A stretch of DNA of 64,000 nt, from positions 206,639-270,638 of the forward strand of contig NZ_BLAE01000003.1 in NCBI RefSeq assembly GCF_009687865.1, written 5' to 3'. Numbering within the stretch: position 1 is the first letter of the stretch; every line of letters starts with the position of its first letter. A program made the position numbers and the translations under genes. A model generated the notes under the pieces. It searched no databases. It was given only the letters and a program-made list of their open reading frames with translations, and had not been told where the DNA came from. Below, piece after piece: positions 36,049 through 40,245 of this stretch. Source of the DNA: Acrocarpospora macrocephala (GTDB lineage Bacteria > Actinomycetota > Actinomycetes > Streptosporangiales > Streptosporangiaceae).

Positions 36049-39000
36049 TCAGAATTCGGAGGCGGCGTCCAATAGCCATGCGGCCAGATAGCGCGCGAAC
36101 GACGCCCTGACAAGGACCAGAAAGCCATCACTTTCAGCGATCAGGATGATCTGCGCACGCGCCAGCAGCGTCTGCGCGCACCGCCCAACCGGGAAAACCT
36201 CCGGATGCAGATCAAGCCCACACCCATGCGCCAGCAACTCCCGCGCCCGCCCCCCACTCACCCTGATCGCGGTCCGCTGCGCCGACACATCCACCCCCCG
36301 CACCTCCGAGGGCCCAACCACCAGCCACTCATCCGGCCCAAGCCAGACCGTGACCGTCTCACCATCCGTCACGGCGGCATTGGCCGGCGTGAGCGGTTCA
36401 CCACTCCTGACATTGACCTGCTCAAGGAAGGGCACCTCCCGCACGCTCACCCCATCGAACTCGGCGAAGAACCCATCCAAAGGGCTCCTGCGCTCAGGCG
36501 CTGGGGGATGAGGGGGAGTGGTTGCGGGTTCGGCCTGCATGGCGGCGCTGCGCTCGGGAGCGGCTCCGGGTTCCGTCTGCGTGGCGGCGCTGCGCTCAAA
36601 TGCTGGGAGATGAGCGCGGGCGCCTCCGGGTTCGGTCTGTGTGGCGGCGCTGCGCTCAAATGCTGGGAGATGAGCGGGAGCGGCTCCGGGTTCGGTCTGC
36701 GTTGCAGGGCTCGGCTCGGGCGCTGGAGGATGCGTCTCTGGGCCTTGAAATCCGGACAGGCTGCCGCTGTCACTCTTGGCGCCGGTGCGGCGAGAACCGT
36801 CACCTGCGTAAACGGCGTCGGATAACGGCGAGTAACCCGGTGAACCGCTCGTTCTGTCGGACGTTCTTGGCGGGGAGTCGCCCGCGCCCGTTTCATCGAC
36901 GGTGTCGGTGTCGTGGCGGGCTTCTTCGTCGGGGTTGCCGTCGCGGCGGGTGCCTTCGGGGTCGTACAGGACGGGGGTGGTTACGTTGGCTTTGGTGCCG
37001 TTGAGGGTGGTGAGAGTGGGGTGGGAGCCGGTTACGAGGGCTAGGGCGAAGGTGCGGTTGAGGGTGGCGCTGGTGTAGCTGGAGGTGATGTGGCCGACCA
37101 TTTTGTTGTCGGCGAGGAGGGCTGCGCCTTCGGGGAGGTGGGTGGTGGGGTTTAGGGGGAGGAGGGCGACGAGGTGGCGGCGGTCGGGGCGGGAGGTGTC
37201 CTGGCGGGTGAAGGAGCGTTTGCCGAGGAAGTCGGGCTTCTTTTTGGAGATGATCCAGGTCATGCCGAGGTCCTGGGGGGTGGTGGTGCCGTCGGTGTCC
37301 TGGCCGATGATGGGGTAGCCCTTTTCGGCGCGGAGGACGTGCATGGTTTCGGTGCCGTAGGGGGTGATATTTCGGGACATGAGGGCTTCCCAGAGGGCGA
37401 GGCCGTACCAGGCGGAGACGTTGATCTCGTAGGCGAGTTCGCCGGAGAAGCTGATGCGGCAGACGCGGGCGGGGATGCCGGCCACCTCGGTATCGCGCCA
37501 GGTCATGAACGGGAAGCTCGTCTTGTCGACGGCGAGGGCGGGGGCCAGGTCGCGGAGGACCGCTCGTGAGCCGGGGCCGACGAGGGCCACGGTGGCCCAT
37601 TGTTCGGTGACGGAGGTGCAGGTGACCCGCAGGTCGGGCCATTCGGTCTGCAGCCACTCCTCCATCCAGTCGAGTACGGCGGCCGCGTTGCCGGTCGTGG
37701 TGGTGATCAGGAAGTGGTCGTCGGCCAGGCGGATCGCGGTGCCGTCGTCGAAGACCATGCCGTCGGGGCGGCACATCATGCCGTATCTGATCGAACCGAC
37801 GGCGAGCGAGCTGATCAGATTCGTGTACAGGCGATCGAGGAACTCGGCGGCGTCGGGGCCGATCACGTCGATCTTCCCGAGCGTGGAGGCGTCCATCGCG
37901 GCGACGTTTTCGCGGGCGGCGCGGCATTCGCGGAGTACCGCCGTTTCCATGTCCTCGCCGTTCTGGGGGTAGTACCAGGGGCGCTTCCATTGCCCGACGT
38001 TCTCGAACAGGGCTCCGTGGTCGGCGTGCCATTGGTGGAGCGCGGTGATCCGTACCGGATCGTGGAGATCGCCACGATCGCGCCCGGCGAGCGTCGCGAA
38101 CGACACCGGCAGGTACGGCGCCCGGAATGTCGTGCTACCCACCTCGCCCGGAGTGACCCCGATCGCGTGCGCGACCAGCGCCGCCGTCAGTGCTCCGGAG
38201 GTCTTCCCCTGGTCGTGTGCGGTCCCCGCGGTCGTGTACCGCTTCACATGCTCGACCGACGTGAGCCCCGCACCCGTGGCCCGCCATATGTCGGCAACGG
38301 TTACATCCCGCTGAAGGTCCACGAAATGCCGCGAGTAATCATCAGCCGGGACGAACCACAGGACCTCGCCGCCGTGATCGATGTCTCCTCGCGCGGCGCC
38401 CACCACCTCGACAGCCTGCGGAGACCCATCCGGGACCAGCGCGCCCAGGGACTCGTCGTATCGCAGCGTCCCGCCCGACTGGCTGAACAGGTGAACAACA
38501 GGGTTCCAACCCCCAGACACCAGCAAGAGATCGGCCGAAAGCTCCTGACTGCTGAAATCGACGCCCGAAGCCTCCCGAGGACTGACAACCACGGAAGCGA
38601 GCTCATCGCATCCCCGCGCCTCAGTCACGAAATATCCGGCAAGCACCTCAATACCGGCCGCCTGCGCCCGACTCACCCACTCCTCACCAGGAACCCGCCG
38701 AGAATCCACGATCGCCGCGACCGCAACCCCCGCCCCCGCCAACTCCAACGCGGCGGCATAAGCACTGTCATTGGTCGTGAACACCACCGCCCGCCGCCCA
38801 GGCAACACCCCAAACCGGACCAGATACTCCCTAGCCGCCCCCGCCAGCATCACCCCCGGCAAATCATTCCCCGCGAAAGCGATCGGCCGCTCCAGCGCCC
38901 CAGTAGCGAGAACCACCCGCTTAGCCCGAATCCGCCACACTCTCTCCCGAGCCACCCCCGGCGACGCACCAAACCCAAGATGCCCAGTCCTACGCTCAAC

Positions 39001-39798
39001 TGCCACCAGATAGTTGTCGTCGTAATACCCCACCACGGTCGTCCGCCCAAGCACCCGAATCCCCGCCCCAACCAGCCCACCGACCTCCGGCGGTTCTGTC
39101 GGCCCACTGACCTCCGTTGGTTCTGCCAGCGCACCGAGCTTCCGCGGTTCTGCCAGCCCACTGAGGTTCGTTGGTTCTGTCGGCGCACCGAGCTTCCGTG
39201 GTTCTGCTGGAGCGCTCAACGGAATGCCGCTGACGTTCTTGGCGCCGGTGCGGCGAGAACTGTCACCTGCGTAAACGGCGCCGGATAACGGCGAGTAACC
39301 TGGCGAACCGCTCATTCTGGTAGGTGCTCTCAGGCCCTCGGCTGTAACCGGCTTTGAGTCGGCGATGATCACCCGGGCTCCGGAACGTTCGGCCTCCAGC
39401 GCGGCTGCCACTCCCGCACGACCAGCCCCGATCACCAGCACATCGCAATGCGCGTAAACAGCGTCATACCGTGCCGGATCTGGCTGATCGGCGAGTCGTC
39501 CCCGCCCGGCTAGGCTGCGCGCCACCAATCCGTCATAGAGGTCTACCGTTGTCGCCAAGACCATCGGCTCGGGAAATGGTGCCTCAATCTGCACCACCGC
39601 ATTTGGCTCTTCGACGCCAGCGGAGAAAATTCCCCGAGGCCGCCCTAGGACCGGGCTCGTCCCGACTCGCCGAACACCATTGGCCAGCAGCGCGGACGCG
39701 AGCGTGTCTCCGGGATGTCCGCTGTACTCCTGGCCATCGAAAACGAACCGGAGCACCCGCGTCCGGTCGATGGTCCCCAGTTCGGGATGCCTGTTCAC
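36049..39798 (-). CDS. soxA-soxG: Sarcosine oxidase alpha subunit fused to gamma subunit, with repeat insertions
   Basis: This 1249-residue protein starts at GTG 39,798, overlapping the soxD stop (GTGA). SoxA features are an N-terminal 2Fe-2S-like fold with FVFDGQEYSGHPGDTLASALL, a dinucleotide site CDVLVIGAGRAGVAAALEAE, a second binding region VVLATGALERPIAF, and a C-terminal GcvT/tetrahydrofolate domain ending near VLYDPEGTRRDG (about residue 990). SoxG follows after a 130-residue linker, from SPLDGFFAEFDGVSVREVPFLEQ to the end. SoxG is normally a separate gene. The FAD domain also contains an inserted stretch of Pro/Glu repeats. Two copies of a 95-bp element occur, one in that insert and one in the linker. 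The heterotetramer converts sarcosine to glycine and passes C1 to folate. Confidence 0.9.
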   Translation of the reverse strand: MNRHPELGTIDRTRVLRFVFDGQEYSGHPGDTLASALLANGVRRVGTSPVLGRPRGIFSAGVEEPNAVVQIEAPFPEPMVLATTVDLYDGLVARSLAGRGRLADQPDPARYDAVYAHCDVLVIGAGRAGVAAALEAERSGARVIIADSKPVTAEGLRAPTRMSGSPGYSPLSGAVYAGDSSRRTGAKNVSGIPLSAPAEPRKLGAPTEPTNLSGLAEPRKLGALAEPTEVSGPTEPPEVGGLVGAGIRVLGRTTVVGYYDDNYLVAVERRTGHLGFGASPGVARERVWRIRAKRVVLATGALERPIAFAGNDLPGVMLAGAAREYLVRFGVLPGRRAVVFTTNDSAYAAALELAGAGVAVAAIVDSRRVPGEEWVSRAQAAGIEVLAGYFVTEARGCDELASVVVSPREASGVDFSSQELSADLLLVSGGWNPVVHLFSQSGGTLRYDESLGALVPDGSPQAVEVVGAARGDIDHGGEVLWFVPADDYSRHFVDLQRDVTVADIWRATGAGLTSVEHVKRYTTAGTAHDQGKTSGALTAALVAHAIGVTPGEVGSTTFRAPYLPVSFATLAGRDRGDLHDPVRITALHQWHADHGALFENVGQWKRPWYYPQNGEDMETAVLRECRAARENVAAMDASTLGKIDVIGPDAAEFLDRLYTNLISSLAVGSIRYGMMCRPDGMVFDDGTAIRLADDHFLITTTTGNAAAVLDWMEEWLQTEWPDLRVTCTSVTEQWATVALVGPGSRAVLRDLAPALAVDKTSFPFMTWRDTEVAGIPARVCRISFSGELAYEINVSAWYGLALWEALMSRNITPYGTETMHVLRAEKGYPIIGQDTDGTTTPQDLGMTWIISKKKPDFLGKRSFTRQDTSRPDRRHLVALLPLNPTTHLPEGAALLADNKMVGHITSSYTSATLNRTFALALVTGSHPTLTTLNGTKANVTTPVLYDPEGTRRDGNPDEEARHDTDTVDETGAGDSPPRTSDRTSGSPGYSPLSDAVYAGDGSRRTGAKSDSGSLSGFQGPETHPPAPEPSPATQTEPGAAPAHLPAFERSAATQTEPGGARAHLPAFERSAATQTEPGAAPERSAAMQAEPATTPPHPPAPERRSPLDGFFAEFDGVSVREVPFLEQVNVRSGEPLTPANAAVTDGETVTVWLGPDEWLVVGPSEVRGVDVSAQRTAIRVSGGRARELLAHGCGLDLHPEVFPVGRCAQTLLARAQIILIAESDGFLVLVRASFARYLAAWLLDAASEF
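36514..36725 (-). repeat. 60-bp tandem repeats in the SoxA-SoxG linker
   Basis: The linker encodes repeated 20-residue units of the form AHLPAFERSAATQTEPGAAP, two nearly exact plus degenerate flanking units. DNA units of 60 bp contain GGCGGCGCTGCGCTC and GCTGGGAGATGAGCG. The product is Pro/Glu/Ala-rich and probably disordered. Confidence 0.75.
36762..36856 (-). repeat. 95-bp element, copy in the SoxA-SoxG linker
   Basis: It matches 39,225-39,319 at 87 of 95 positions. Both are read in the same frame: SGSPGYSPLSDAVYAGDGSR here, SGSPGYSPLSGAVYAGDSSR there. It contains GGCGCCG facing an imperfect CGGCGTC, so it may fold. Confidence 0.85.
39225..39319 (-). repeat. 95-bp element, copy inside the SoxA FAD domain
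   Basis: This is the second copy of the element, about 2.46 kb away in the same gene and orientation. GGCGCCG (39,241) and CGGCGCC (near 39,277) form a perfect inverted repeat in this copy. It is followed toward the C-terminal side by 51-54-bp repeats encoding AEPRKLGA..TEPT..SG units (39,080-39,215). Confidence 0.85.
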
Positions 39799-40073
39799 CC
39801 GATCACCGGCCGGGGCTCTCCAGGCAGATAAACAGCCTGAATCCGATTGGTCCGGGTGTCCCGCACCACGTTGAACCACCGGCGGCAGCCTGCCGAATGG
39901 CTCCACCGCTCCGCGAACGATCCTTCCGGATTCTCCCGGAAGAACAAATACCGTCCCCATTCCTCATCCGACAACGCGGCTGGATCCTCCGGATAAGCCA
40001 CATGAGCCTGCCCGCCATAGTGAAATTCAACTTCATCGCGCTGCCCACACCAGGGGCAAGAGATAAGGAGCAC
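39795..40073 (-). CDS. soxD: Sarcosine oxidase delta subunit
   Basis: This 92-residue small subunit starts at GTG 40,073 with GGAGGG 5 nt upstream. The zinc ligands of SoxD are present: CPWCG (Cys6, Cys9) and HSAGC (His and Cys near residues 59-63). HYGGQAHVAYP and LFFRENPEGSFAERW are family signatures. It sits between soxB and soxA, as in the usual soxBDAG order, and overlaps soxA by 4 nt. A longer upstream open frame through the tandem repeat at 40,101-40,245 is not needed to explain it. Confidence 0.92.
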   Translation of the reverse strand: MLLISCPWCGQRDEVEFHYGGQAHVAYPEDPAALSDEEWGRYLFFRENPEGSFAERWSHSAGCRRWFNVVRDTRTNRIQAVYLPGEPRPVIG

Positions 40074-40100
40074 GGGGGCCCTCCACAGCATGACATACAG

Positions 40101-40245
40101 GGAAATTCGGGGACGATGGGACGGGGCCCTATAGGGAAATTCGGTGGGGACGGGATGGGTGTATGGCGAAATTCGGTGGGGACGGGATGGGCTTATGGAG
40201 AAAGTCGGTAGATGGTGGAATGGGCATGTGGGGAAAGTCAGTGGG
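40101..40245. repeat. About four 33-bp tandem repeats between soxB and soxD
   Basis: Units begin GGAAATTCGG or GAAAGTCGG and contain GGGGACGGGATGGG followed by TATGG, repeating every 32-34 bp. The first two full units are nearly identical and the outer ones degenerate. The array fills the whole soxB-soxD gap, which in most sox operons is only a few bases. Confidence 0.8.

Follow-up and report, generated by a model that had tools for sequence, protein, structure and literature searches.

How does one bacterial gene come to carry the same short sequence twice, read both times in the same frame? The question is raised by a 64,000-nucleotide stretch of the Acrocarpospora macrocephala genome (contig NZ_BLAE01000003.1, positions 206,639 to 270,638; the window, meaning the whole stretch that was analysed), in which 36762-36856 and 39225-39319 are 92% identical over 95 nt at a spacing of 2463 bp. 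A sequence-only reading of the window had proposed a small selfish element of a new class, reminiscent of the Rickettsia palindromic elements (RPEs) that insert in frame into coding genes. The two repeats very probably belong to a family of miniature inverted-repeat transposable elements (MITEs) that has spread in Acrocarpospora, about 120 bp long, devoid of a transposase, and with 17-bp terminal inverted repeats and 3-bp target duplications.

Two element copies in a fused soxA-soxG gene

Both repeats are located, in the same frame, inside a single minus-strand open reading frame (ORF; 36049-39960, 1303 aa), as the sequence-only reading had described. A 26-nt core pattern, allowing up to three mismatches, occurs twice in the window, with a mean of 0.00 occurrences in shuffled versions (n = 100). 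The 95-bp stretches are the cores of two 126-bp elements, each matching positions 1-126 of a covariance model (CM) of 126 positions; over the full 126 nt only 100 positions agree between the two, because divergence is greater at the ends than in the core. The GGCGCC inverted repeat reported earlier does exist as internal arms (GGCGCC...GGCGCC) in the repeats; the larger palindrome, however, is terminal, and an alignment of further copies shows a unit of about 126 bp with inverted ends rather than one of 95 bp. The features of the locus are as follows.

36049..39960, minus strand: host gene, a soxA-soxG fusion (sarcosine oxidase alpha and gamma), 1303 aa, assigned by Pfam
36744..36869, minus strand: element copy 1, 126 bp including the presumed 3-bp target duplications (CM match, E 2.2e-22), in the linker that joins the SoxA part to the SoxG part; translation RTSDRTSGSPGYSPLSDAVYAGDGSRRTGAKSDSGSLSGFQ; genome coordinates C3:243382-243507
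36850..36866, minus strand: copy 1, 5′ terminal inverted repeat (model positions 4-20)
36747..36763, minus strand: copy 1, 3′ terminal inverted repeat, decayed (model positions 107-123)
36488..36723, minus strand: coding tandem repeats with a 60-bp (20-aa) unit, 3′ of copy 1, without counterpart in the A. pleiomorpha orthologue
39207..39332, minus strand: element copy 2, 126 bp (CM match to positions 1-126, E 3.4e-24), in a SoxA loop within the FAD-binding part; translation RAPTRMSGSPGYSPLSGAVYAGDSSRRTGAKNVSGIPLSAP; genome coordinates C3:245845-245970
39313..39329, minus strand: copy 2, 5′ terminal inverted repeat (model positions 4-20)
39210..39226, minus strand: copy 2, 3′ terminal inverted repeat (model positions 107-123)
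39072..39206, minus strand: coding tandem repeats with a 27-bp (9-aa) unit, immediately 3′ of copy 2, without counterpart in the A. pleiomorpha orthologue

The host ORF contains the Pfam domains Fer2_4, Pyr_redox_2, SO_alpha_A3, GCV_T, GCV_T_C and SoxG. The window's own genome (G000, 12.1 Mb) was compared with those of A. pleiomorpha (G001), A. corrugata (G002), A. phusangensis (G003) and a fourth congener (G004). The first three possess a fused soxA-soxG with 93, 82 and 81% protein identity, respectively, and lack both elements, which are therefore in-frame gains in A. macrocephala; in the fourth congener soxA and soxG are separate genes, the alpha protein aligns at 78% and the locus carries no element. 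Since the gene is fused without the element in three species, the idea that the element caused the fusion was rejected. In A. pleiomorpha, where 91-95% of the bases around the insertion sites match, the two sites measure 26 and 39 bp, compared with 278 and 429 bp in A. macrocephala; the coding tandem repeats of 27 and 60 bp arrived with the insertions or later. In an alignment to 1vrq_A, a solved structure of the alpha subunit, aligned residues 167 and 199 flank the gap that holds copy 2, and copy 1 comes only after the final residue, 964, where alpha joins gamma; at both places the lengths of the orthologues already vary. Upstream (5′) of the fused gene, at 40096-40193 on the minus strand, three 32-bp direct repeats of the TATAGGGAAATTCGGTGGGGACGGGATGGG type were observed.

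When whole elements are compared, the two window copies have an identity of 0.794 to each other, less than each has to a locus elsewhere in the genome (0.825 to C12 for one, 0.849 to C21 for the other); this makes two insertions likelier than one insertion copied within the gene, and soxA probably gained the element twice, independently. A sister relationship between the two copies was considered and finds no support in full-length identity, and the tree is uninformative on this point. Sixteen codons differ between the copies, and since a mere two of these differences are synonymous, there is no sign of selection on the encoded peptide.

A dispersed family with inverted ends and empty sites

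The sequence-only reading had held that a lack of further copies would favour a simple duplication within the gene. Instead, the model has 91 matches in the window's own genome; G001, G002 and G003 yield 76, 36 and at least 128, and G004 yields four, with the best 150 candidates per congener genome scored. BLAST with copy 1, covering 40 scored candidates, finds at least 44 places in the own genome. An exact core with 24 specified bases was searched in a collection of 84,980 species, represented by one genome each and possibly leaving out the window's own, and retrieved 62 stretches, all 62 of them from Acrocarpospora (A. pleiomorpha, A. corrugata, A. phusangensis and A. catenulata); such a pattern overlooks diverged copies. 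A BLAST search of 55 genomes from other genera, covering the best 14 or fewer candidates in each, gave no match in 50 and fragments of 24-60 nt in five (E 1.8e-4 to 9.6e-4), which were treated as chance. In the collections searched, the family is confined to Acrocarpospora.

Several observations concern the surroundings of the copies. Two or three elements can lie close together (L094:3793-4040; L185, C79:41840-42186; L123, C3:39114-39656), and in the L094 and L185 clusters they adjoin head to tail. Beside copies in L012, L015, L019, L021, L029 and L030, another dispersed repeat, roughly 80 bp long and with termini resembling GGGCCCGCAGAG...CTCTGCGGGCCC, was noticed by eye, and the sequence to the right of the copy at C25:147034 matches many places in G001-G004 and may represent a further repeat family.

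The consensus is bounded by terminal inverted repeats of 17 bp (ends about GARCRCCTAACAGAATG), in which 16 of 17 bases are complementary. Of its six reading frames, sense frame +2 alone runs without a stop from end to end; 50 of 66 near-full-length copies keep this frame open, compared with 4-11 of 66 for each of the other frames, and it is the frame read in both soxA copies and in a third coding copy described below. Folding, which had been suggested as a check on the two repeats, gave a divided result: the consensus RNA folds strongly, forming a long stem at its ends and two hairpins inside (-70.1 kcal/mol, z -6.9), while the window copies reach z -0.8 and -2.0, and the four genomic copies folded individually range from -0.8 to -4.8. 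Across 41 aligned copies the structure in register pairs 77.0% of cells, as opposed to 34-48% when slid by 1-3 columns. When the partners were shuffled among copies, however, 76.8% of cells still paired and 180 of 500 shuffles reached as high a value; the covariation score was equalled in 139 of 500, and the number of cells changed on both sides in 28 of 500. RNAalifold retained eight pairs from the alignment, none with a compensatory change, and Rfam yielded no match at gathering score in six sources including the window. A conserved RNA structure was therefore rejected: the palindrome is real in the family, its upkeep copy by copy is invisible, and this is as expected for decaying copies of a palindromic master.

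Orthologous empty sites bear on mobility. The joined flanks of 18 own-genome copies were searched in the four congeners, and seven of the sites were aligned. At C35:35254 the site is empty in A. pleiomorpha (GTGAA followed by TTAGGCGG) and in A. corrugata (GTGAA followed by CTATGCC); the A. pleiomorpha junction GTGAA-TTAGG corresponds to GTGAA-TTG-element-TTAGG in A. macrocephala, a 3-bp duplication of TTA of which the left one has one base changed. At C25:106331, empty in A. phusangensis and A. corrugata, the element sits at the upstream gene's stop codon, TAA, and CCG-TAA-TCC in A. phusangensis corresponds to CCG-TAG-element-TCA-TCC. The target duplications at these two clean sites are thus TTA and TAA, each with one or two later changes. 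At C44 (A. corrugata and A. phusangensis) and C14:99850 (A. pleiomorpha and A. phusangensis) the congeners share the gene end without the element and show further deletions. The C80 element is absent from A. phusangensis and the fourth congener, whose stop codon occupies the position where the A. macrocephala element starts, and is a decayed copy in A. pleiomorpha; the C21 element is present in A. pleiomorpha and missing from A. corrugata; and A. pleiomorpha carries a partial element at C77:48125.

A candidate source of mobility emerged from 81 near-matches to the terminal repeat in the five genomes, the surroundings of 20 of which were examined. In A. phusangensis a degenerate 880-bp element (L234:3008-3887; C20:18207-19086) has inverted ends that both resemble those of the MITE, and encloses broken ORFs, pieces of which match DUF4096 (5.1e-20) and DDE_Tnp_1 (3.9e-5); by these domain matches the ORFs are remnants of an IS5-type transposase. 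It is the only near-full-length copy found, and neither an intact copy nor an active parent turned up in the five genomes. Target duplications of 2-4 bp are typical of several subgroups of the IS5 family, a range that includes the 3 bp seen at the two clean sites. The MITE is probably moved by a transposase of this type; most likely, an IS5-family enzyme acting on the shared ends would mobilise the element in trans.

Several points weigh against mobility of this kind. Clean junctions are available at just two sites. At C12, empty in the fourth congener, the reading of a duplicated GAA some five codons ahead of the native stop is tentative, with 15 of 21 bases matching, and the exact soxA junctions are unreadable because site lengths vary among orthologues. 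Among 48 copies with both ends, the per-base agreement between left and right 3-mers is weak (0.42 and 0.47 at the expected registers); 0.47 is the maximum of the table, yet two unrelated registers score 0.42-0.43. The putative parent is represented by a single degenerate copy, which comes from another species and has no match in the genomes of A. macrocephala or A. pleiomorpha, and transposition is deduced from sequence comparison. Finally, a simple MITE alone does not account for the bias of copies towards stop codons in sense orientation.

Placement at gene ends and competing explanations

Gene positions were assigned with a home-made codon-usage gene caller. In the own genome, the stop codon of a co-oriented upstream gene falls within the first 40 nt of the element in 44 of 95 copies, whereas the mirror case, a convergent gene whose end falls in the element's last 40 nt, applies to 7 of 95 (binomial p 1.2e-7). 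The congener set, picked by exact core and hence not a random sample, shows the same asymmetry (22 of 93 versus 2 of 93; p 3.6e-5); the two sets are not independent because some copies share ancestry. Gene starts within the element ends are rare (0 and 2 of 95 in the own genome; 0 and 0 of 93 in the congeners).

Insertion into coding sequence also occurs outside soxA. A gene for an EamA-domain transporter in A. pleiomorpha carries the element in frame +2, and the same gene lacks it in A. macrocephala and the other three congeners; Tandem Repeats Finder detected no tandem repeats of period >=10 at this copy. In a thioesterase-MFS protein of A. phusangensis (L071) and A. corrugata (L284), a partial element in the linker is read in frame and antisense, and the G004 gene (L285) is devoid of it. 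The thioesterase-MFS matches in A. macrocephala and A. pleiomorpha were not used as orthologues, since they resemble a second A. corrugata locus (77-78%), and a spanning ORF at L145 was judged spurious because the upstream gene ends at the element. The expectation that a mobile element should be missing from the corresponding positions of orthologues is thus borne out at soxA-soxG, the EamA and thioesterase-MFS genes and the empty sites. Altogether, in-frame spanning copies number at least 4 of 188 distinct matches (95 from the own genome and 93 from congener stretches), at four sites in three genes (two in soxA, one each in the EamA and thioesterase-MFS genes), a lower bound, given that window copy 2 escaped the gene caller.

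Tandem repeats with a period of at least 10 and a score of at least 50 lie within 250 bp on the 3′ side of 42 of 168 copies and on the 5′ side of 6 of 168. Seeding of such repeats by the element was considered and rejected, given that they are similarly frequent in matched 3′ regions of genes without the element (41 of 514 in total, 37 of 193 where the intergenic region is at least 100 nt and 32 of 110 where it is at least 200 nt). Tandem repeats are common 3′ of genes in this genus even where the element is absent (window, L061-L122, L123-L197).

Which explanation fits these data best? That one soxA copy arose from the other by a simple intragenic duplication, with nothing mobile involved, would suit two copies in one gene that are 92% identical over 95 bp. 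As the whole story it is refuted by the dispersal of 91 matches over the genome, and is hardly credible given that the flanks of the two copies look unrelated, that each has a closer relative elsewhere, and that neither copy is present in the closely matching A. pleiomorpha gene; local copying of one soxA element from the other is the less likely course. Another explanation places the emphasis on gene ends: a selected 3′-end element, either a transcription terminator or a stabiliser of mRNA 3′ ends, with a habit like that of repetitive extragenic palindromic (REP) sequences and with the coding copies as accidents. The stop-codon bias in both sets of copies, the strong consensus fold and the pairing in register argue for such a role. 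It is nonetheless unlikely, considering that shuffled partners pair as well as the real ones, that individual copies fold so unevenly, that copy numbers in the congeners range from 4 to at least 128, and that a near-palindrome would be expected to function in both orientations.

The ends and their placement also recall the attC recombination sites of integrons, in which a hairpin follows the stop codon in a fixed orientation. The attC end consensus is RYYYAAC...GTTRRRY, and the inverted ends of the element contain GCCTAAC and GTTAGGC. A site of an integron-like system is very improbable, though: the copies are scattered over many contigs with only small clusters, the empty sites lack the element alone while the neighbouring gene is still present in the congener, and 3-bp duplications are not expected from attC recombination.

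The MITE family remains the best explanation, and its distribution would in part follow from what the host can bear. Many surviving insertions lie at or near stop codons in sense orientation, where they may cost the gene little. As sense frame +2 is free of stops, insertion in that phase within a flexible linker keeps the host protein readable, as happened twice in the soxA-soxG of this species, probably independently, with the host proteins presumably tolerating the inserts. Tolerance would thereby favour gene ends over gene bodies and leaves the preference for one orientation unaccounted for; that bias could reflect either an asymmetric target that includes stop codons or selection against one orientation. 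A more far-reaching version, which we rate as slightly less likely than not, is that sense-oriented copies at stop codons reflect targeting by the MITE or strong retention there, that the element supplies or abuts the stops of its neighbours and that, through its stop-free frame, it also lengthens protein linkers; it would then be an independent actinobacterial counterpart of the RPEs whose IS5-type parent and target site can be traced.

Comparison with known repeat families

Within the open-licence papers covered, as far as their accessible text extends, no report of such an element in Acrocarpospora was found. With IS5-type bacterial MITEs the family shares its short length, the absence of a transposase, terminal inverted repeats like those of an IS5-type fossil, and a 3-bp target; it differs in the sense-orientation bias at stops, the stop-free frame and the in-frame insertions. 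A three-nucleotide target is on record in the actinobacterium Leifsonia for ISLxx6 and is described as common in the IS1031 group (PMC2516522). ERIC and the Correia/NEMIS elements are likewise MITE-like palindromes, some with open frames, and include a 107-bp Correia form fused to ORFs; compared by description (PMC2229807), they occur in other hosts and have TA termini.

Small repeats at gene ends have a precedent among the actinobacteria, the mycobacterial MIRU, which overlap stop codons in the direction of the gene. The Acrocarpospora element resembles them, by description, in its gene-end, stop-overlapping and co-oriented placement; unlike it, MIRU are not known to have terminal inverted repeats.

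The closest analogy is with the RPEs. These (PMC2229807, PMC10969869) are elements of 105-146 bp with terminal inverted repeats and a stop-free frame, found in frame in unrelated protein genes as well as in intergenic copies, and the Acrocarpospora element is alike in size, terminal repeats, stop-free frame and in-frame coding insertions that are absent from orthologues. The likeness is one of description, and the host belongs to another phylum. Nearly half of the first-reported RPEs lie in ORFs (PMC10969869), whereas in-frame copies are a small minority here; because the coding share differs in this way, the family is not filed as an RPE. Target duplication in RPEs is given as unknown in PMC2229807, while the Acrocarpospora family offers two 3-bp duplications and an IS5-type element with shared ends. 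Many of its copies, moreover, are found at gene 3′ ends in one orientation, an additional preference beyond the RPE-like habit and one that a MITE model leaves unexplained.

The literature on in-frame insertion of small palindromic elements, in the parts consulted, has focused above all on Rickettsia; the RPE habit can now be placed in a large, GC-rich actinomycete genome with two clean empty sites, a 3-bp target and a candidate parent family. Pairs of soxA-soxG orthologues that differ in carrying the insert, yet share 93% protein identity, make it testable in an assayable enzyme whether such insertions are neutral, harmful or useful. The proposed likeness to RPEs thus holds for the in-frame gains in coding genes and extends to a minority of copies; the proposed small selfish element is indeed palindromic and mobile, and its anatomy is that of a bacterial MITE. 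It is a new MITE family with RPE-like in-frame insertion as a minority habit, rather than a new class of element.

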